DNA from: Capsaspora owczarzaki ATCC 30864 | Lineage: Eukaryota; Opisthokonta; Filasterea | DNA: 64,000 bases | Assembly (NCBI RefSeq): GCF_000151315.2 | Contig: NW_011887297.1 | Location: forward strand, 62,001-126,000 | Reading direction: 5' to 3' | Part shown: in pieces, positions 10,253-60,085 of the stretch | How the letters are laid out: each line of letters begins with the position of its first letter | Numbering within the stretch: position 1 is the first letter of the stretch | Translations under genes and position numbers: made by a program | The notes under the pieces: model-generated | Database searches by the model: none | What the model was told of the DNA's origin: nothing | The model's input: only the letters and a program-made list of their open reading frames with translations

Positions 10253-10846
10253 ATGAGCCCGTCACCTCCGGGCACCCTCGCCTCCAGCGGCGGCGGCGGC
10301 GGCGGCGGCGGCGGCTCGTCCACTACTGCATCCGCAGCCGTAGGATCGGGGCTGCCTGGCAGCGGGCGACGGAAGCTGCCCTCTGGCTCACCAGTTCAGC
10401 AAGAGGATGGTAATCATACCAAGGCTCCTCTCTCTCTGACTCTCGCTCCCCTCTTCCCATCCCCCCCCCTCTTCTCTTCTCGTGCTCCTTGTGCCTCGGT
10501 TCCCCCATTCCGCGCGCCGCTCGTCTTGTCGTTTTGTCGGTCGTCGTTTCGGTTTTTGAGTGTTTTTCTCAGCTGGTGTTCGCTATTTTCGTACTGTTGT
10601 GGTCTCTCTCTGTCTCTCTCTCAATGGAACTCACTTGTGCTCTCCAGCAGCCAAGTCAGCTTGTTTCAATCCGCTTCGCCACAGCGTCTCGTCTTCCTCT
10701 CTTTGTCTCGCTTTTTGCCTCGCCTTGTCTCATTCTGACCACCCATGCAACATGGAAGGGGAAAGGGGAAAGGGGACTCTCATCCTCACTCTCTGATTGT
10801 CGTTACTCCTTGTCAGACACTTCTTCCTCTTCTTCTTCTTCTTCTA

Positions 10847-10878
<32 letters not shown>

Positions 10879-13800
10879 GCGAGCTCAATGTCCGCGTCGC
10901 CAAACGGCGCTTCGACGCCGAGCTTGGCCTGTTCCGCGCCCAATGCATCGTCGTCCTCCCTCGCTGCGTCCGCGCACCCCTTGCTCGCAAAGAAGCGACA
11001 AAGCTCTCCTTCACTGCTCATGTCCGTCACCACGCGCGGATGGTCCCCGTCGTCATCGTCGTCGGCGTCGTCGTCCCCGTCGTCGTCTGCAGTCCCACTC
11101 GATGCAGCGGCAAACAACTCTGCCGCAATAGCGAACGCTGCATCCGTCGCCTCTGCTGGAAGCAGTAGTGGTGGTGGTAGTGGTACTGGCAGCAGTAGTA
11201 GTAATATTGGTAAGGGCAAGGATGCTGGCGGACGGCGCACGTTCGTGGTCGGCGCCAGCATCGCCGAGGTGGACGAACCCTCCTCGCCCAGACGCGAGCG
11301 AGCAAAGTCGTCATCGCCGGACGCTCCGATGGTAGCGCCTGAATCGGGCAATCTCTCGCAGTATCGCCAGCTCCCGAGCTTTGACTCAAACTACGAAACG
11401 GACAGCTTGGCACCTTCGTCGGGCCCCCCGAGTCCCCTTTCGAGCATGCCGCCGTCCAACCTTGTTTCCGCAAACACCTTGACAACATCCGCATCGATGC
11501 CTCACACTGGCACTGGCTCGGCTGCGCACAGCCAACTGGTGGCCGGGCGCTCGCCTTCCGCTGAATCGCCACTTTCCCTCTCCGTCAGCGGGAATGTTCA
11601 AAACTTGCGGGGACACTTTCAGCAGTTGCAAGACGCTCGCGACGCGGGAAGGCGATCCCACTTGCCATCCGACGTGGCAGCCTTTCGGCTGCGACAAGCT
11701 CGGCACCTCGAGCACCTCGAGCACCTGAAGGCAGCTGCGGCAGCATCTCCTTCGCGAAGTGTATCGCCGACAGGCAGCGTGCTGACATCCTCGCCTTCCC
11801 CAGCATCAGCAGCACCTCCTGCTGCTGCCGTATCTTCTTCCCCGGCTGGCCGGCCCTATGTCGCCCGGCAGTTTGCCACGTCCGAGTCAAGTGCTGCGTC
11901 GCCCCTGACCGTTCATTCTTCGTTGTCGTCGTTCCAGGGGTACGATGGCGTGCTTCCCGTCTCCTTTGAGCTATTGAATGCCAGCGCAAGCAGTGAGTCC
12001 GGGACTTCCTCTCCAGCCGACACTCTTCAGCGGCAGCGATTGAGCCACGTCCGATCGGGCAGCCGCCACAGCACGTCGTCCGGCGAGTCCACTGTTCGGA
12101 GCGCTCCCAAGAATGTCTATGAGGCGCTGTATGACTACCGGGCGCGAAGGAACGAAGAGGTGTCGATCGGCAAGGGCAACACTCTGAAGGTGTTGCAAAA
12201 GCACGACGATTCGGGTGATCCCGACTGGTGGAAGGCAGATATGGGCAACGGGGTTGTTGGATTTGTGCCGGCCGGGTACTTGACCGAGTCTCGGCGAACG
12301 CGGCGCGTGCGACCTCCGATCGTGCGCCACGGCGATCCACTCGACAACCTTTTTCAACGGGACGCCTCTGCCCCCGCGGCTGCCAACCAGGATGGCGCGG
12401 TTACTGGCGCCCTCCCATCGGGATTGGCCAAATCCAGGTCGGAATCGCTGGCTGCGTCCAATGCCTCCTTCTCACCTACGGCGGTCGCCAACTCTGCCGG
12501 ACTTCTTGACGCTCATCACTCAATGTCGCCATGTGGTGCAGCGTCTGATGCTGCCGCGCGCCTCGATCACGAGGAGCTCTTTTCCAGCGAAGGACCGACC
12601 TACGCAGAAGGCGACCTGGACATTATGGACGACGAGTCGCGCTGCAACTTTGCGCGGCTCAAAACCATCGAGGAGCTTCTTGAAACGGAGCGATCCTACC
12701 TGGACAGTCTGATGAACATTGTGGATGTCTTCATGTATCCCCTCTTTGAGCGCCTCGAACGCTCGCATGGTGTGATCAACCGCGTCATCATTCGCGACAT
12801 CTTCTCCGAGCTTCCCGCCATTTGCAACGTGAATGGCGTGTTGCTGCAGGACGTTGAAAACATTGTCAATCGATTCACCATCCATGTCCACCAACAGCCC
12901 GCCACGGATCGGCCACGACGTGGAAGCATGCAGTCGACCGGCTCTGGCGTCGCTTCCCATCAGTCCGCGACTTCAATGCATCACCCGCAACCTTTGCAGC
13001 CCGAGCCGTTCCATCAGCAACAACCATCGGTTCAACCCCCTTCAGACGGTGCGCCGTCGGACTTTGAATTCCCTGGTTCCGAAACCACCTTCACCATTCC
13101 GTCCAAGTACGTGCCAGCCATGGTGGAGGAAGTGGCTCGCGTCTTTGTCCGCATGTCTCCGTTTTTGAAAATCTACACTGCATACGTGCGAAACTTTGAC
13201 TATGCCATGGAGACGCTGGCGACGCTTGGGCATACAAGCAAGGCGTGGCGCAAGTTTCTTCGCCTTGCCGAGGCCGATCCGCGCTGCCATCGCCTCCCAT
13301 TGGACTCATTGTTAATCATGCCGGTGCAGCGCGTTCCGAGGTACAAGCTGTTGCTCAAGGAGCTCCAGAAGCACACACCCGGGCACGAAAACACAGCCTT
13401 CAAACTTCTTGACGAAGCCGTGACAAAGCTCGATGAAGTGATGGCGCACATCAACGCCAAAACCAAGGAGAATGACGCAAGAATGCGCGTCACAACCCTT
13501 CAAAACGAGCTTCGAGGTTTGCGGCAAGTGCGCACGCGGCTCGTCCAGCCTGATCGCACGTTTGTGCAAGAAGGACGAGGTAACGGACTTGTGTTTGCTT
13601 GTTTTTTTTCGCTTTGCTGCTTATGCGTGTTGTTGTTGTTGTAGTTGTTGTTGCCTGTGTGACCTTGTCGTTTTTGAGCTCACTTCCCCCCCCCCTCATA
13701 TCTGCTTGCAATGGCAGTTTTCGAGCTCGAAGGCAGCAGCATCAGTCCTCGAGTCCTCTTGTTGTTCAACGACTGCCTCATTCTCGGACGGGAAAGCACG

Positions 13801-16711: not shown

Positions 16712-17351
16712 NNNNNNNNNNNNNNNNNNNNNNNNNNNNNNNNNNNNNNNNNNNNNNNNNNNNNNNNNNNNNNNNNNNNNNNNNNNNNNNNNNNNNNNNN
16801 NNNNNNNNNNNNNNNNNNNNNNNNNNNNNNNNNNNNNNNNNNNNNNNNNNNNNNNNNNNNNNNNNNNNNNNNNNNNNNNNNNNNNNNNNNNNNNNNNNNN
16901 NNNNNNNNNNNNNNNNNNNNNNNNNNNNNNNNNNNNNNNNNNNNNNNNNNNNNNNNNNNNNNNNNNNNNNNNNNNNNNNNNNNNNNNNNNNNNNNNNNNN
17001 NNNNNNNNNNNNNNNNNNNNNNNNNNNNNNNNNNNNNNNNNNNNNNNNNNNNNNNNNNNNNNNNNNNNNNNNNNNNNNNNNNNNNNNNNNNNNNNNNNNN
17101 NNNNNNNNNNNNNNNNNNNNNNNNNNNNNNNNNNNNNNNNNNNNNNNNNNNNNNNNNNNNNNNNNNNNNNNNNNNNNNNNNNNNNNNNNNNNNNNNNNNN
17201 NNNNNNNNNNNNNNNNNNNNNNNNNNNNNNNNNNNNNNNNNNNNNNNNNNNNNNNNNNNNNNNNNNNNNNNNNNNNNNNNNNNNNNNNNNNNNNNNNNNN
17301 NNNNNNNNNNNNNNNNNNNNNNNNNNNNNNNNNNNNNNNNNNNNNNNNNNN
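16712..17351. other. Assembly gap (640 N)
   Basis: Unsequenced run lying in the divergent region between CTU1 and the LRR gene. It probably contains promoter sequence for one or both genes. Open frames drawn through it are artefacts. Confidence 1.
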
Positions 17352-24761: not shown

Positions 24762-27380
24762 ATGATGCAGCGAGTCGACTCTATTTCCGCTGCCATGGTG
24801 CTGCTGTTGCTGCTCTTTGCTGCAGCCGCATTGCCGCGTCCTGCGCTCGCTGGTCCGTATTGAAAAAAACTGTGACCTGCATTGCAAATGCACTTCAACT
24901 CATTGCTATGAGCTCGTGAATGAACCGAATGGAAGAGTTCTGAAAGAAACGGTCACCGAGCGAAAAACCAAAAAAAAAAAAAAAAAAAAAAAAACCCACA
25001 ATACTAAACAACTAACGGCATATCGACGAGTTTGAACTTTGCATTGACTTTTGGGGCTTTGAAGTGGGAAAGCAACGAGAGACACGGCGTCGATGATCCA
25101 CCAACAACTGTCAACTGCCAACTGCCCGATGACTGCATTTTTTTCGGCAGCACGTCTGAGCATTTCGTGGTTTGCTTGTCTCCGAGCACCACTTTCTCCA
25201 TTTCGCCCCCCCCCGCTTCGACCATTCCTCGATCTGAAAATGCCGCGACTGATTGTTGGTTTGTTTGGTCGGTTCTACAGTTACCTGCGGATCAACCACG
25301 CTCGCATCGAGCCTCGATGTTGCGAGATTTGTGACGGCCTGCACCGCCATCTCGGGCTCTCTCACCATTTCTGGCAGCGACATCATCTCACTGCAGACGC
25401 CTGGGTTGCAAAGCCTCGTCAACGTCACTGGCGGCGTGACCATCACCTCAAACACCGCGCTTGGCTCCCTCGCTGGTCTCGAGGCGCTCACCAACATCGG
25501 AGGATCCCTCTCCATCACTTCCAATCCGGCTCTGGGCAATCTCGCCGGTCTTGCGGGAGTGCGGCAGATTGGTGGGTCTTTTGAGGTCTCGCTCAACTCG
25601 GCCCTCACCAGCTTTTCGGGACTGTCGCAATTGCGCACGGTCGCCGGGTCTTTGACGGTGTCGAGCAATCCAAAGCTGCGCCAACTCAACTCCACCCGCT
25701 CTCTCACCCTCGTGAATGGGGACTTGACGTTGCTGTCCAATCCACTGCTTGCATCCATCGAGTTTCCCAGCCTTGTCAGCATTGGCGCGAATGCAAGCGT
25801 CATTGCTTGCAATCCGACGAGCTTGCAGGGATTGTGTGCCCTCAAGTCTGTCGGCTCCAACCTTGCAGTGCGCTACAACCCCGTTCTCGCTGACATTGAC
25901 GGCCTGTCCAAACTGCGCACGGTCGGCGGTGGCATGACAATCGAGCAGAATGCGGTTTTGGCAAACGTCGACGGCTTGCTCGGCCTCTCCTCCCGCGGAG
26001 TTGGTGGACTTGTCATCATCCAAGATAACGCAGCGCTCTGCTTCACTGGGGTGGTGAACTGGACCAGCGTCGCAACAACGCTTCCCGTCATTTGGCGGAA
26101 TCGGACGCCGTGTCCAGCAAGTCGTGCCGCGCCATTGTCTGTTCCTGGACCAACCTACTCTGACGTGCGTGCCACGTCTGTGCTCGTCTCATGGGAGCCA
26201 GCAAGCAACGTGAATGGGATTGTCACCGCCTACCGTCTGTTCGTTGGATCGGTTGCAAGCATGGACTTTTTTGCTTTCAACTCGTCCGTGCTTCCCGGCA
26301 CCCAGTCCTTTTGCGCAAACTCGCGCGTTTCGTACAATCTCACAAACTTGTCGCCCTACAAGACGTACTCAATGTACACCATTGCCTCCAATCTTGCCGG
26401 GAGCACCTCGAGCGCGATCACCACGATTCGCACCGCAGAAGCTGGTAAGTGCACATGTTGTACATTTCAGAACTATTGCATCGGTCTGCCTACTTTTTTG
26501 TGTGAGTGTTTTTGCGTCTTGCTGACTTTTCCAAAACTGATTGTTGACAGCTCCACAAAATGTCAGCGCTCCGGTTCTGATTCCAATCTCGTCGCGGCAG
26601 ATTGACATTCAGTTTAAAGATCCAGCCGTGCCGAATGGCGTTGTCAGCGGCTTTGTTATTCGGCGTAACGGAGCCGAGATATTCAATTCTGCTCCGCCAG
26701 TCCCGACAGGCAGTCCACCGCGTTACACCTTTAGCGACCGAATGCTTGAGCCCTATACAAGCTACACCTACGTCGTCTACGCAAAGACCAGCGCGGGGTC
26801 AACCGCAAGTCCCAATGCTACCGTTCGCACTCTGGAAGACGGTAGGTGGTTTTGCGCTTTTTGATCCCCCCTTTCTCCAGTTTCCTTCGATGAATGCAGC
26901 ACCCTGTTTTTGCTCTTAGGCTCACTTTTCGGTTTGTTGACTATTTTTCTTTTTGTTTTCGCTTTGGGATTTGTTTCGCTCTCGCATGGCGGATAATACG
27001 GCTTGTTCGAAGTTCCTGCAAGCATCAACCCGCCCGTTCTCCAGCCTTACAACAGGACAAGTTTGAATATTACGTGGAGCGCACCCGATCTGCCAAACGG
27101 ACTGCTGGTGCGCTACACTCTGGATTTGTACGTGGGATCGTCAGGCGCGAGCGCGACGATTTACAGCGGCACTCGTCGCTGGTTTATCGCCAACGGGCTT
27201 TCCACCGAGATCACGTATCTCGCGCGTGTCACCTTCTGGAACAGCGCCGGCTCAGTGACGAGTGCTCCAGGGGCTGGCTCACCTGCTGCTCGATCCAATG
27301 ACAGCGTGCTATTGCGACCAACAACGTTGTGGCTGCTCGCCCCGCTTTTGTGTTTCAGTGTCTTACTTGCTGGCTGTTGA
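24762..27380 (+). CDS. Secreted surface protein with receptor L-domain-like repeats and FN3 domains, probably GPI-anchored
   Basis: Four exons (24762-24852, 25281-26444, 26551-26841, 27013-27380), all phase 1, give 637 residues. Exon 1 is a signal peptide (MMQRVDSISAAMVLLLLLFA). Residues ~31-300 are irregular leucine-rich repeats of the receptor L-domain kind, with the repeating pattern GSLxIxxNPxL-xxLxGL (for example GGVTITSNTALGSLAGLEAL). Three fibronectin type III-like domains follow, beginning near PGPTYSDVRATSVLVSWEPA, APQNVSAPVLIPISSRQIDI and PASINPPVLQPYNRTSLNIT. The domain-by-exon structure is regular. The C-terminus is hydrophobic (TTLWLLAPLLCFSVLLAGC) with almost nothing after it, which suits GPI-anchor replacement better than a signalling membrane protein. 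No kinase domain is present. The use of ATG 24762 is set by the signal peptide. Confidence 0.88.
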
Positions 27381-30189: not shown

Positions 30190-33489
<3,300 letters not shown>

Positions 33490-52096: not shown

Positions 52097-52362
52097 GATT
52101 GAACAAGAATCAGGTTGCAGAAAAAGAGGAGTGGAAGATCTGAGAGCAAATCTGAGAGCAATGCGAAACAAAATACTGAAAACACCATTTGTGTATCAGC
52201 GTAGAAATCCACGACAAAAGAGTCAAAAAATCACAACTCACGCGCTCAGAATCCGAGAATTCAGCCAGTCAGTCTTCCTTCATTCAACATTCGCGTTTCA
52301 GAAAGACCGTTCAAAACACACACACACACTCATACTCACACACTCACACACTCAAAAACTCA
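52097..52362. promoter_or_regulatory. Divergent intergenic region, kinase-START / SPOUT1
   Basis: 266 bp between start codons. A CA-rich stretch (near 52316-52352) lies just before the SPOUT1 start, in its presumed 5' UTR. No TATA box recognised. Confidence 0.4.
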
Positions 52363-54150
52363 ATGCAAAAGTATAACAGCGACGACGACGATGAGCCGGA
52401 CTACACGGCGATGAGCAGCGCCGCACATGGCGCAGCAGACGGACTGGGATCCGTCTTGCGACCCAAGCGCCGCAACCACCGCCAGGAGAAGGAGCTCCAG
52501 CGCGAGAAGAAAAAGTCTCGCATTGAGCGGGCGATCGAGCAGAGCCGCGCGGCTGGCCCCGCAGGTCAGCGGCCCATTGGCGGCGCAGCCAGCGAGCGCG
52601 CGTGGAAGTCCAGCAACCACGGCGACGCGCCCTCAGCCGATGGACACGCTGCCTACAGCAATCGCGATGGCGAAAACGACGACGGCGACGATGCCACCGG
52701 CGGAACAGTCGCCGGAGGCGCTGGATCGTCGAGCAAGTCGGCGCCGCCGCCGCGTGGAGGCAGCCACAGTAGCTCCAGTGCGTCGGGTCGCTTCCACCGT
52801 CCTGGATTCTATCCGGCAGAAGACGCTGCTGCTGCCGCTGGTGGAGCCAATAGCGAGGCCACGCAGCAGGCACGCATGAACGCAGGGCTGGGTCCGCGTG
52901 CGTACACTGTCTCGGTCGCCATTCCCGGATCGGTGCTGCACCTTGCACAATCAGCCGAGCTCAAGACGTATATGGCAGGCCAGATTGCACGCAGCCTGTC
53001 GCTGTTCAATGTCGACGAAATTGTCATCTACAACGACGGCAGCGGCGGCAAGCAAGCGAGCTCAAGCATTGTCACGACGGAGGGCGAGTTTGAGGGCGCT
53101 GGCAAGCAGGCCACCTCCAACCCAGACGTGTTTTTGGCGCGTGTGCTGCAGTATCTCGAGACGCCACAGTATCTGCGTCGCCAGCTTTTCCCGATGCACC
53201 GCGACCTCAAGTTTGCCGGCTTGCTCGCCCCGATCGAGTCTGCGCACCATCCCAAACAGGACGAGTTTGTCGAATTCCGCGAAGGCCTCGTGCAAAGCCG
53301 TTCCAAAGGGCAACGCGGCAATGCCCACAGTCACGGACCAGCAAGCGCGTGGGACGACCAGGAGGGCGGCGAGCAGCACCACTCTGCGCCGTTGCCCACC
53401 AGCTCGTTTGTCGACGTCGGCTTGCGAACGGAGGCCAAGATCAACGTTGCGCTGCAGCCCGGAACGCGTGTCACTGTCCAATTCCCACAGTGGTCTGTCG
53501 ACAACAAGGACGGCCACTTTTCGCAGCCCTCCCACCACCGCTACCCGTCCGGCAACGTCGTGACGCCGTCGCTCCCTCGCGAGCTGCGTGGTTTGTACTG
53601 GGGCTACTCGGTGCGACTAGTGCCAACCCTCAGCCGCGCACTCGTTGACTGCCCCTTCAATGAACGTGGCCGCTACGACCTTCTGATTGGCGCCGGCGAT
53701 GAGGGCGATTCTGTGGACGATATGAGCGAGCTGCCCGAATTCAAACATGCCCTCATTGTGTTTGGCGGTGTATCGGGGTTGCCTGCCGCGATCGAAGCCG
53801 ACGAGTCGATGGAGGCGCACAACCCTCGCGCCGTCTTTTCAAAGTTCCTGAGCACGTGTCCCAGCCGAGGTTGCCGCTCTGTTCGACCGGATGTAAAGTC
53901 ATCAAGCATTTATCTTTTGGTTATGTTATGAAGCCTTTAGCCTTTGTTGGGAGCCGCGGGTCGGGAGAGGGGATGTGAAACAAACTGATTTTTTTGTTTT
54001 CCTGTTGTCAATTATTTCTCACAAACAATTTGCTCCGCTTGAACATAGGAATCGTTGCTGATTTCTTTGGCCGCCTTGCGCCCTCACCTTGCCCATGCGG
54101 GAGTCAAGAGCACCGGTGGCGTGACCAAATCGACTGCCAAGCGATCATGA
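52363..54150 (+). CDS. SPOUT-fold RNA methyltransferase, SPOUT1/C9orf114 (CENP-32) family
   Basis: Two exons (52363-53892, 54049-54150) give 543 residues. The N-terminus is acidic then basic (EKELQREKKKSRIERAIEQS), a likely nuclear/nucleolar signal, followed by Gly/Ser-rich linker. The SPOUT core starts at YTVSVAIPGSVLHLAQSAEL and LFNVDEIVIYND, continues with VLQYLETPQYLRRQLFP and FAGLLAPIESAHHP, an OB-like insert (INVALQPGTRVTVQFP), GLYWGYSVRLVPTLS, and the cofactor knot HALIVFGGVSGLPAAIEADE. The last exon is essential: PSRGCRSVRPD joins to ESLLISLAALRPHLA, the conserved C-terminal helix of the family; reading through the intron instead gives a tail that does not match. Human SPOUT1 methylates 28S rRNA and is found at spindles; the substrate here is inferred from family. 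Confidence 0.93.
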
Positions 54151-54977: not shown

Positions 54978-55247
54978 ATGTTGACAGCCGCCAGCTTGAG
55001 CGCACTCGACGATCAGTGCGCATCGCCGGCGCGCCACAAGCGACGGAACGAGAACTCGAGCGACGCGCATCCCTCTGCCGCTGCTGCTGCGCCCAGCGCC
55101 AGCGCGACCACCTCCGCCACAGCTGCGGCTGCCGAGACTGAGCAATCGGCCCCAGAGCACATTGCCAAGGCAAGTTCCAACCATGTGCTTCCATCCCCAG
55201 CCACCGAAAAATCCAAACAAAATGCGCGCGAAACTTGAAAAAGCCCC

Positions 55248-55280
<33 letters not shown>

Positions 55281-56075
55281 GTTTTGGCAGCTCTTTCCAT
55301 TTGTCTGGAAGGGGTTTTTTCCCTGGCGCTCTCGTTCCCCTGTTGTCGTGTGGGGGTGTTGGTGGAGGCTGCAGCAATTTTGCCCCTGACTCTTACACGC
55401 ACTTGCAGCGGCGCGACTTGCGGTTGCGACGCGGTGGAAACCTGTTTTTTTTTTTATTATTATTATTTTATTATTTTTTATTATTTTGTATTTTCGGCTA
55501 AATTATTTCTTCGTCCTTGTTCATGCGCAATGCGTCGCGCCTTGTTCCTGTGTTGCTCAACTCACTGCCTGCTTGTGATTTCCATGCATCTTTGCACCTG
55601 TTGTTCCGTCGCGTGGATGCGCAGCGAGCACGGCGAGACGAGACTGAGCCGCTCACTGTTGATATTCCCCAGCTGCAGCAACCGGCGCTCGCAGACTTGG
55701 TAAGGCCCGTCCCCCTCCCCCTTCCTTCCTTCTGGCTGTGCTTTTGTGAGGGGAGGGACTGTCAGTTTTGCAACCATCGAGTGATTTGAGAGCGAGCGAG
55801 TCGAGTGGAGTGAGTGAGTGAACGGGAGGCGTGTTGGTGAGCGAGTGGTCCGACCACAAATTTCAGCCACCCGGGCACAACGACCGAGTCACGCATGCGC
55901 GCGGCACCTTGTTTCCGTGTCTCTGCAGTCAGTGCGCCAACGCGCGGGGACTTGCATCCATCTGTGTGGCGGCTCTGCGCAGTGTCCACAGCATGCTTTT
56001 CATCGGGATTTTTTTTTTTAAAAACAGATTTTTTGTAGCAGCAGTCGCGCCAGCTTTGGCTTCAACATTGTTGTT

Positions 56076-56107
<32 letters not shown>

Positions 56108-58242
56108 AGTGCTGGATGTCCCAGTCCCAGCCACCCTCAATTAGAAGCAGCACTCAACGAGCCCTCGTGCAGCAACCGCGTGCTTGGCGGCGGCGACCGA
56201 CGTAACGTTCGCAAACATTGAAAGATTGAGGGAGAAAAAAAAAGCATTCGCTCATGCAAAAACCAATCCATCATGGTTTCGACATTCTTGACAACGCTTT
56301 GGTCTCGTTTGGCATCGCGTGCAAAACACTCACCTCCCTTCTCACCGCCCCAAAAAACTACAGCTGAAAACAAAATTCACAGACCTATGGTTTGGCGCGC
56401 GTGAAGACATTGCGCCAGAGGTGCACACGCAGGCTCGAGAGGCGCTGGACGTCTTGCAGCAGACGGGCGTCTTTAACGACATGGCGCTCCGATTGCGCGA
56501 GCCGGATGCCGTGTCGCGAACGGCGGTCAAGCGCCTGCTGCTGGGCGAGCCGGGCCTGACCTTCCGTGTGATGGATTTGCGGCTGTTTGCCCTCCCGTGG
56601 TCGGATTTGTCCGAAACGGACGCTGCGGCGCTTGCTGCCGCGGCCGAGCGCCACCCCAACATTGAGCGCATGACCGCCGGCCTGCACAAGATTGCCAAGG
56701 TTCTTGCAGACACGGCCAAGGTGGAGATTGAGCGACGGACGACAGACTTGATCCGCGAGCACACTCCCCAGCCGCAGAGTCCTGCTGGGGACGAGGCTGC
56801 CACTGCAGCGGGCACTTCGCTGCTCTCCATCCCTCCCATCACCGCCCCATTGCTGGCGGGCCATCCGCTGTGGAAGCAGTCCGACCAGCTGGTCGCCGGC
56901 ACCGAGTTCAACGCCTGCATGCTCAACCTGTACGACCCTGCAGACATGCCCGACACGGATTTGCAGGACGATTTGCTGGGTCGCGGCAAGCTCGCGATGG
57001 GCTGGAACTCGGACACGTTTATCGATGCGTCGTCCACGATTGGCGTGTACATTTGCCTGCCAGAGGAGGCTGAGCAACGCGAGCGCCGACTTTCCATGTC
57101 GGCCAACGGAGCAGCAGCAGCCGCCGCCGCCGCTTCAACCAATGCCCAGCCCGAGGTCAGCAGCAGTAGCACGCCCGCGGCCCCGACTTTGACCCTGTCC
57201 AAGGACAACTCTGGCGACGCTGACGCTGACGAGCACGATTCCGCCGTTGAGATGGACACGTCCGACTCTGGCGCCTGGGCTGTCGGTTTCCGTGCCAAAT
57301 CCGACGGCACTGCGCCGCCACTGCTTGCGCATTTGCGCTCGGGTGACATCTATCTGATGCTGCAAGGCTTTACCGAGCACCACCAGCGCGCACTCTACGC
57401 TGGCCATGCCAAGCGCATTGCCTGCATTTGCCGCAAGATTGATGTATGTCGCTTTGATGATGATGGTGATGGTGATGGTGATGGTGATGGTGATGGTGAT
57501 GCTGGCGTTCTTGGCGAGAAGTCCCACTTGCCTATGCGGGCTGTCTTGCTCATAACCCTAACCCCTTCCCCCCTTGAACAAACAGAACTCGCCTCTTTCG
57601 AGCGGCACTCGTGACTACATTGTCAACTTGTGCAACTCGGCCATTGCCGATGCCTTGATATCCGGCAGCCATTTTGATCTCATGTCGGTGACAAAGGTGC
57701 AGCAAGCGCTGACGGAGGTTGAGTGCGGCTGGATTCGACAGTTCTGGGCGCACGGGTTGCGACACGCGCGTATCCAGGCGTTCTGGAAGCGCGTTATCGA
57801 AAGTCTAGAATTGCAGTGGCAACAACTGGAAAGCTTGGTACGTTTGGCTTCCCCCGTACCCCGCTGTCGATTTGATGCAAATGGTGTGCTCATGCTTTCT
57901 GCCCTGTACATCCGCTATTTACAGACTCGGCAATCTCTGGACTCAATAACACGGCATATGAGCGAGGCCCTGCACACCGCCACAAAGAGCGAAAATGCAC
58001 GCATTGCTACCATTTGCGATGCGCTGCTCAAGGCGTTCGAGCATCGGCTACGTCTCCGCGAGCAGTGGGCAAACTTTTACTCGTCCCCAGACTTTGATCA
58101 CATGGAGAACGATCTGCTGCCTGTTCGACGGCCGCACTTTTCGGCCTCGTCGCCCCTACCCGAGGCGCTCGAGCCCAAGATTGCCCAGCTTGTCAAGTAC
58201 ATTGCTCTGTTGGACGATCGCATTGCTGCGTATGAGGCTTGA
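54978..58242 (+). CDS. FTO-family 2-oxoglutarate dioxygenase homologue with altered iron ligands
   Basis: Five exons (54978-55169, 55625-55699, 56364-57443, 57586-57837, 57925-58242) give 638 residues; the first intron seems to use a GC donor. The middle and C-terminal parts follow human FTO along its length: GEPGLTFRVMDLRLFALPW matches FTO's GNPGCTYKYLNTRLFTVPW, NACMLNLYDPADMP matches VTLLNFMDPQKMP, AWAVGFRAKSDG matches WHVGFK, SGDIYLMLQGF matches QGDCYFML, TRDYIVNLCNSAI matches TLDYILQRC, and the FTO C-terminal helical domain begins at VECGWIRQFWAHGLRHARIQ. FTO demethylates m6A and m6Am in RNA. The iron site is unusual: human W-H231-H-D233 is W-N-S-D here, and H307 aligns with Arg in EHHQRALYAG. 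The two arginines that bind 2-oxoglutarate (R316, R322) align with R in AKRIACICR. A ~70-residue Ser/Ala/acidic insert lies between beta strands. Confidence 0.85.
55252..55279 (+). repeat. Poly-T tract in FTO-like intron 1
   Basis: An uninterrupted run of about 28 T in the first intron of the FTO-like gene. Confidence 0.9.
56069..56108 (+). repeat. TTG trinucleotide repeat
   Basis: About thirteen TTG units with one ATTG interruption, in intron 2 of the FTO-like gene. Confidence 0.9.
57463..57510 (+). repeat. Six-bp tandem repeat GATGGT
   Basis: About seven tandem GATGGT units immediately after the 5' splice site of intron 3 in the FTO-like gene. It stays open in the upstream exon's frame, which makes a false Asp/Gly read-through. 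Confidence 0.9.
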
Positions 58243-58516: not shown

Positions 58517-60085
58517 TCAGCCCGTCTTGCCCAGTAGCCGCTGCTCAAGTTGGAAGGAATATGGATACTGGTAACGATTAGGAGGAGGAGGAACAGAACC
58601 GGATGAGCAGAAGACGAGAAAACAGGTCAGTTTCAACAAGGCAGAGCCCCACAAGCCCCCCCCCTTGAGAAACGGCAGAGCGTTTCAATTTTTTTTACCT
58701 TTCTGGACATGTCCATGTACGGCGTTGGCTCGATTGTCAATACAAGATTGTTTTGCTGGGAAAAGAGGCAACACAACAACATCGATGAGCAAAAGAAATC
58801 AAAACACACCACGGACATTACAAGTATACCAACCTGTGGCTGAGATCCACGGTCACTGCCAAGGGCTGGATGCCCAGGCGGAGAAGCGATTGGGACGCCT
58901 TCAAGCCAGATATACGCCGTTTTGGTGGACGAGTGGTGTGCTTGCTGATTGCGCTTTGTTCGTGGTGGTACTATGGGTGGCACGTTGGTATACACGTTAT
59001 CGTAATTGTCGCCCATGTGTCTGCAAGCGGGGGGGGAGAGAGAGAGGGAGAGGGAGACAGGACGGAGTGAGACACCGACATCAGTCAAAGCAAAAACGAC
59101 AAAAACCTGTTTCATCGTGAAAAAGAAAAAAACCACCACGTAACATACGCTGGCAAAGCACCCGTGGATGACGCGCGAGCATTAGAAAGTGAACTGGGCG
59201 GCACAAGGGACTGAGTTGGCATGGCAGCGAGCGAGGCCGTCGACTGCTCACGTTCGTAGTGGTTGGATTGTGGTCCTGGCGGTGGAGGTGCGTGACCCCG
59301 CCGTGGAGCCTGGAAAGAAGCGTGGTCCGCATCGAGGTATTCGTTGTCACGGGTGAGACGACCCTGCGAGTCTGGCAACGGCGCGCCGGTCGAGTCCCGC
59401 TTTCGGACGATGAGGGCGAGGTCGTCGACGAGCGGGCGGTTGGTGGGCACAAAGTACTGCGGAATGCGGTCTTGGTGCCCTATTATGGCCATCTTCAGGT
59501 CCTCAATGAACGGCGCAGAGCCTGCGCGCGGGGCCTTCCGGACGCACAGGCGATGCTTGAAGTCGAAATGATGACCTCGGACGCTCGTGTTGATGACTGC
59601 AAATCCCGGCGGCGGCGTCTCTGTGTCGCTCTCCAAGATGTAGACGTCCGTGACGACTTCCGATGCCATCGGATCCTGCGCAAAGCAGACGACGACCGTG
59701 CTTGGCATAAACCGTCCGACCTTGAGCGCGGCGCTGTGGCGTCCATTGAACGTGTGCGAGATCTGCTCCCGCCCCCAAAATCAGAGCAACCAACAAAGCA
59801 GAGTGTGTTGCCATATGAGTCCAACTGGGTGTTGACAGAAGCCCCCTCAACGACGACGACGGCGACGACGACGACGACATATGGCTGCGAGTGACGTTGC
59901 ATTCGAGCTCTAAACCGCTGTGCTGTGCTCGACCGTTCCCCCCGCTTCCAATGATGCTCATGAATGACAGTTGCCAAGGTGGGATCCAAGTTGCGCTGAC
60001 TTGCCTCTCTGTAGCGGATGGGGCAGCTCTCGTGCTTGCTCTGGTTGACGAGCACAATGTCGGTGACTGCGTTCTGACTTGCCAT
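58517..60085 (-). CDS. MVB12-like ESCRT-I subunit (MABP domain plus UMA-like C-terminus)
   Basis: Five exons (60085-60005, 59762-59149, 59020-58834, 58755-58699, 58567-58517) give 329 residues. The N-terminal half carries the MABP fold seen in MVB12A/B, in two or three sub-repeats: AVTDIVLVNQSKHESCPIRY joined to ISHTFNGRHSAALKVGRFM, and VVTDVYILESDTETPPPGFA. The first junction uses an apparent GC donor (GAG then GCAAGT). A Ser/Pro-rich linker has PPPP and PPIVPPRTK stretches that could bind SH3 or UEV partners. The C-terminus (IWLEGVPIASPP, TIEPTPYMDMSRK, YPYSFQLEQRLLGKTG) resembles a UMA motif, which contacts ESCRT-I, although the match is looser than for MABP. MVB12 stabilises ESCRT-I for multivesicular-body sorting. 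The last exon codes for only 16 residues. Convergent with the FTO-like gene; divergent from the isochorismatase gene. Confidence 0.78.

Follow-up and report, generated by a model that had tools for sequence, protein, structure and literature searches.

Whether a relative of FTO that lacks most of its iron ligands could still act as an oxidative demethylase is the question raised by a gene at 54978..58242 on the forward strand of a 64,000-nucleotide stretch of the Capsaspora owczarzaki ATCC 30864 genome (contig NW_011887297.1, positions 62,001 to 126,000; hereafter the window, to which coordinates refer unless a contig is named). A sequence-only reading of this stretch had proposed that the gene has lost two of the three iron ligands of FTO and that its product may be a pseudoenzyme. 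The loss of two of three ligands supports this as the best reading of the sequence, and we consider it probable that the gene encodes a retained FTO pseudoenzyme whose iron site has been dismantled and which is kept for a non-catalytic task. No report of FTO in Capsaspora, or of FTO as a pseudoenzyme, was found in the open-licence literature, a body that leaves subscription journals and preprints outside.

Gene structure and relationship to FTO

Exon boundaries set from reading frames and splice sites place the start ATG at 54978 and the end of the stop codon at 58242, in agreement with the span originally given, and yield a five-exon gene of 638 residues with all four introns in phase 0. Exon 1 (54978..55169, + strand, delimited by its frame and a GC-AG donor) encodes a low-complexity N-terminus with the basic stretch RHKRR, and exon 2 (55625..55699, +, with phase-0 splice sites) a further basic stretch, RARR, followed by the lead-in to the FTO N-terminal domain. 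The homologue of the FTO catalytic domain (FTO_NTD, residues 90-449) is contained in exon 3 (56364..57443, +), the first part of FTO_CTD in exon 4 (57586..57837, +), and the remainder with the stop codon in exon 5 (57925..58242, +). These three exons are recovered both by Pfam and by an FTO profile search of the organism's own genome, with matches of 5.7e-27 and 8.0e-8 in exon 3, 5.0e-26 in exon 4 and 1.1e-21 in exon 5. Intron 1 is taken as GC-AG (donor AAG/GCAAGT) and introns 2-4 are GT-AG. The N-terminus of the predicted protein is uncertain because other in-frame donors exist in exon 1, where 12 GT/GC sites are possible; the start codon and intron 1, like the spliced five-exon model as a whole, are thus predictions. 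The frame is open across all five exons, with 638 codons free of internal stops, and GC at third codon positions ranges from 0.60 to 0.75 across the exons, versus an overall GC of 0.45-0.53 in the introns, the third codon position not being the GC-richest one in the short exon 2. Simple repeats are seen in intron 2 (nine GTT units, 56079-56105) and intron 3 (six GATGGT units, 57462-57497).

Against Pfam-A the 638-residue protein matches two families only, namely FTO_NTD (PF12933; 133.1 bits over a cut-off of 27, E 1.5e-38, in two stretches, the best covering residues 88-331) and FTO_CTD (PF12934; 188.8 bits over a cut-off of 27, E 8.9e-56, residues 456-623, spanning profile positions 1-169 of 170). 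A HMMER search of PDB sequences with E up to 1 returned 16 distinct matches, 12 of which are FTO (4.6e-33 to 1.8e-32), with human FTO as the closest solved relative; the other four, of the RACK1 type with E values of 0.36-0.81, were taken as chance. Identity to human FTO amounts to 144 of 489 aligned residues (29%), with 80/291 in the N-terminal domain (27%) and 51/162 in the C-terminal one, and both domains occur in the same order as in the human protein (PDB: 3lfm, 4zs2, 5zmd). The protein differs from the latter in its longer low-complexity N-terminus and in an insertion of 49 low-complexity residues that separates human positions 245 and 246 and falls between the HxD and distal halves of the iron motif. 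With both Pfam domains far above cut-off, the earlier claim of a relationship to FTO over the catalytic and C-terminal domains is upheld, and by descent the protein is, as judged from its sequence, an FTO homologue with both domains in place.

Ten family profile searches were run over the C. owczarzaki genome (27.46 Mb, 29 contigs), each scoring the best candidates only, and among the candidates scored the gene described here is the single FTO locus. Relatives were also sought outside this genome: a pattern from exon 3 matched six stretches of viral contigs, and a two-row FTO alignment matched 65 stretches of viral contigs and 138 of prokaryotic genome contigs, with none confirmed in any of these sets, while a tblastn search of phages with exon 3 gave no match. 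These searches covered viruses and prokaryotes, and say little about eukaryotes.

The iron and 2-oxoglutarate site

The human motif W230-H231-H232-D233 is replaced by W303-N304-S305-D306 (57003..57014, +; codons TGG AAC TCG GAC), so that the HxD is lost in just the form, WNSD, in which it had first been read. At the second half of the site, T304-H305-Q306-H307 gives way to H428-H429-Q430-R431 (57378..57389, +) with the loss of the distal iron histidine, and the arginine earlier noticed at H307 within an ungapped block is indeed R431, encoded by CGC at 57387-57389. One of the three iron ligands H231, D233 and H307 is therefore kept, their counterparts being N304, D306 and R431. Both 2-oxoglutarate arginines, R316 and R322, had likewise been reported as kept, and they are present at the same spacing as R440 and R446 (57414..57434, +); the spacing 307-316-322 is unchanged with respect to human FTO, and S318 has become A442. 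Also kept are H305 (as H429), N205 and Y295, and further changes affect H232 (S305), E234 (T307), Y108, K216 and K88. According to PMC3692548, conservation of H231, D233 and H307 among the FTO proteins of various species is high, and the human FTO double mutant H231A D233A has wholly lost m6A demethylation; of the residues listed there as those whose change abolishes or greatly cuts activity, two of four are kept. Because the iron triad is incomplete, the protein is not classed here as an FTO-type Fe(II)/2-oxoglutarate dioxygenase.

Placed without gaps, the HxD block (human 220-242) scores 38 against 9 at the next best place, a score reached by 4 of 5000 shuffles, and the distal block (human 287-324) scores 47 against 24, reached by 1 of 5000. 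Register shifts of 1-4 residues either way reduce the scores of both blocks to values from -5 down to -61. HMMER pairs both sites identically, with the HxD stretch weak when taken alone (15.8 bits, E 0.035) and the distal stretch at E 5.7e-19. There is no histidine between residues 256 and 380, the one nearest N304 being 48 residues off, and hence no local shift can supply one at the position of H231. The neighbouring histidines of the EHHQR motif, which had been named as ligands that might take over in another alignment, are disfavoured in this role: a shift bringing H429 to position 307 costs 75 score units and one bringing H428 there costs 79, and both shifts disrupt the H-x8-R distance to R316. 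The observation that two of the three ligands are lost is confirmed. With H231 and H307 missing, and an arginine at the latter position, ordinary Fe(II) chemistry would be very unlikely in this protein.

Four of the five 2-oxoglutarate contacts are kept, which at 27% domain identity would be a suggestive, not a strong, sign of a preserved co-substrate pocket. Single-sequence AlphaFold2 prediction of exon 3, run with no alignment, gave a pLDDT of 36.5 and a pTM of 0.23.

The base pocket

Measured against the residues listed in PMC7835257, the base pocket is identical to that of human FTO at 3 of 12 positions, with H231 and R322 each counted in two residue classes. W230, R96, F114 and R322 are kept; Y108, S229, H231, E234, K88 and K216 are replaced, so that neither of the two pincer lysines (K88 and K216) is left, and C392 is replaced as well. 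Of the pair R96 and E234, which hydrogen-bond the base in human FTO (PMC7835257), one member is present, R96 being kept as R146 and E234 having become T307. The remodelling of the pocket and the disappearance of both pincer lysines speak against plain m6A recognition, and the reading of a methylated base by the pocket as it now stands appears doubtful.

Writers, readers and AlkB-type proteins in the genome

FTO shares a superfamily with the AlkB-like proteins, of which the profile search of the genome recovers two loci (L006 and L007; PF13532). Inspection by eye indicates that both keep the HxD, the distal histidine and the C-terminal arginine (HTD...NHEV...R and HVD...THE...R). Since the iron motifs of the AlkB-like proteins are intact, a general fault of the assembly or of the genetic code does not explain the loss in the FTO-like gene. 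The scanned exons of the two AlkB-like loci, unlike those of the latter, match PF13532 only and carry no FTO_CTD.

Two MT-A70 candidates were scored, and the one match, which has the DPPW motif, is an MTA1/AMT1-like gene (L005, C7:1074045-1077437, - strand). Its identification as METTL3 was rejected, as its downstream exon fits 7F4R (4.8e-45) and 7F4L (8.1e-45) far better than METTL3 (best 2.8e-20), which favours a gene of the DNA 6mA type. Its upstream exon has five matches. Each carries the name MT-a70 family protein, in some cases together with mRNA m(6)A methyltransferase, and two belong to the 7F4 series. The entries 7F4L-7F4T belong to a study of Tetrahymena MTA1, in which the complex is credited with methylating DNA and probably not RNA (PMC9174199). 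METTL3, METTL14 and METTL4 were not detected among the two MT-A70 candidates scored, which would be a weak indication that further MT-A70 genes are absent. Similarly, YTH, PCIF1_WW and VIR_N found no match among the best candidates scored in this genome and none in the control genomes either; as no control genome matched, these absences are weak. PF05971, the family of METTL16, is present. Its detection indicates that the profile search is able to find a nucleic-acid adenine methyltransferase in this genome, and the presence of this family implies that some m6A writing is likely left. A candidate for WTAP was rejected, the Wtap match (23.3 bits) lying under the cut-off of 35 in a coiled stretch before kinase-like sequence; among 14 control genomes one (Haloferax volcanii) also matched, likewise not over the cut-off. 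The T-box profile gave six matches over cut-off on two contigs of the genome, a result that points to an opisthokont.

Alternative explanations

An FTO fold stripped of its iron could conceivably have turned its demethylase pocket into a sensor that binds N6-methyladenine in DNA or RNA. In favour of such a 6mA reader, the genome has the MTA1/AMT1-type writer with DPPW, of a family tied to DNA 6mA in PMC12695648; a structure of human FTO together with 6mA exists (PDB: 5ZMD; PMC7835257), and W230, R96 and R322 are among the residues kept here. However, E234, Y108, S229, H231, K216 and K88 are all changed, leaving few of the contacts to the methylated base and its flanks, and the term FTO is absent from the main text of that 6mA survey (PMC12695648). 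We regard a reader of this kind as unlikely, if ahead of the two explanations that follow. Somewhat behind it we place decay of the gene, or errors in the sequence of codons 304 and 431, an explanation that has in its favour that each histidine change is possibly one base away from CAC (AAC, CGC) and that the observation comes from the sequence of a single genome. Yet the 638 codons are open in five exons, the C-terminal domain scores 188.8 bits over nearly the whole of its profile, and H232, E234, S229 and Y108 have changed too, which goes beyond what two chance errors do.

The least probable explanation is, in our estimate, an enzyme that remains active through a rebuilt metal site, in which Asp306 would be joined by Asn304, His429 or other donors, perhaps for another reaction. 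An enzyme built around another metal centre would also be compatible with the retained D233, R316, R322, N205 and Y295, with the kept H305 (as H429), with the four of five 2-oxoglutarate contacts, and with the location of H428 and H429 three and two positions ahead of the histidine that was lost. Against this, the HxD histidine has no replacement within the histidine-free 256-380 stretch, H429 corresponds to H305 itself and reaches position 307 only through the shift that scores 75 units lower, R431 would probably add a positive charge at the metal site, and the base pocket is identical at 3 of 12 positions.

A probable retained pseudoenzyme and its possible history

The reading as a retained FTO pseudoenzyme would account for an otherwise intact homologue in which one carboxylate ligand (Asp306) is left and Asn and Arg stand in for the two histidines. 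Fe(II) would most likely not be held in the usual way and oxidative demethylation would most likely not occur. Three features suggest that the protein is still in use: a reading frame that stays open, a C-terminal domain of full length, and a 2-oxoglutarate pocket that is kept in part. Its non-catalytic task might be carried by the fold, by the C-terminal domain and perhaps by a 2-oxoglutarate pocket that is still charged, for example in the role of a nuclear scaffold or of a 2-oxoglutarate-responsive partner. The ligands may have been lost after the lineage no longer had the writers of FTO's usual RNA marks, the scaffold staying behind; a need for catalysis relaxed once those writers had gone is likely to be the most economical history. 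We infer the fold, the lack of iron and activity, the nuclear location, the non-catalytic role and the order of events. The support for this reading comes from one genome. A more specific version, for a unicellular relative of animals whose scored candidates include an MTA1/AMT1-type writer of DNA 6mA but no METTL3/METTL14, METTL4, PCIF1 or YTH gene, is that FTO was kept after the loss of its iron site as a regulator gated by 2-oxoglutarate or linked to 6mA chromatin, acting through its C-terminal domain and independently of RNA demethylation; this is possible but improbable.

A parallel is offered by the JmjC-type pseudo-oxygenases such as JARID2, which keep the 2-oxoglutarate oxygenase fold, have lost the iron ligands and are non-catalytic; JARID2 differs in belonging to another branch of the superfamily and in its association with histones instead of nucleic acids. 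Within the FTO family, the Ostreococcus and diatom proteins are, like the present one, homologues from beyond the vertebrates. As described in PMC2241624, the vertebrate, Ostreococcus and diatom proteins keep the iron and 2-oxoglutarate residues, unlike the C. owczarzaki protein with its lost iron ligands. The distribution given there also fits the earlier remark that FTO is patchily distributed beyond vertebrates and algae, and an additional FTO homologue, from a lineage other than vertebrates, green algae or diatoms, bears on the idea of horizontal transfer put forward in that paper.

In animals, catalysis and any further function of FTO coincide, which makes a role beyond demethylation difficult to test there. 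An FTO homologue without an iron site, in which both domains are kept, constitutes a natural separation-of-function case, and since the writers of the main RNA substrates of FTO were not detected among the candidates scored in this genome, any role of this protein should be non-catalytic or differently catalytic. Capsaspora is tractable, and a knockout in this organism could test a non-catalytic role of FTO directly.

Neighbouring features

The upstream neighbour of the FTO-like gene (52180-53931, +) has a Methyltrn_RNA_3 domain (PF02598, 7.9e-88) and is a putative RNA methyltransferase, and a convergent frame downstream (59112-59780, -) has a weak match to MVB12 (PF10240, 5.3e-5). Elsewhere, the window contains N runs at 16712-17351 and 32725-32824, a SH3-RhoGEF frame (10414-13641, +) and a frame combining a Receptor L domain with fibronectin III (25253-26602, +).
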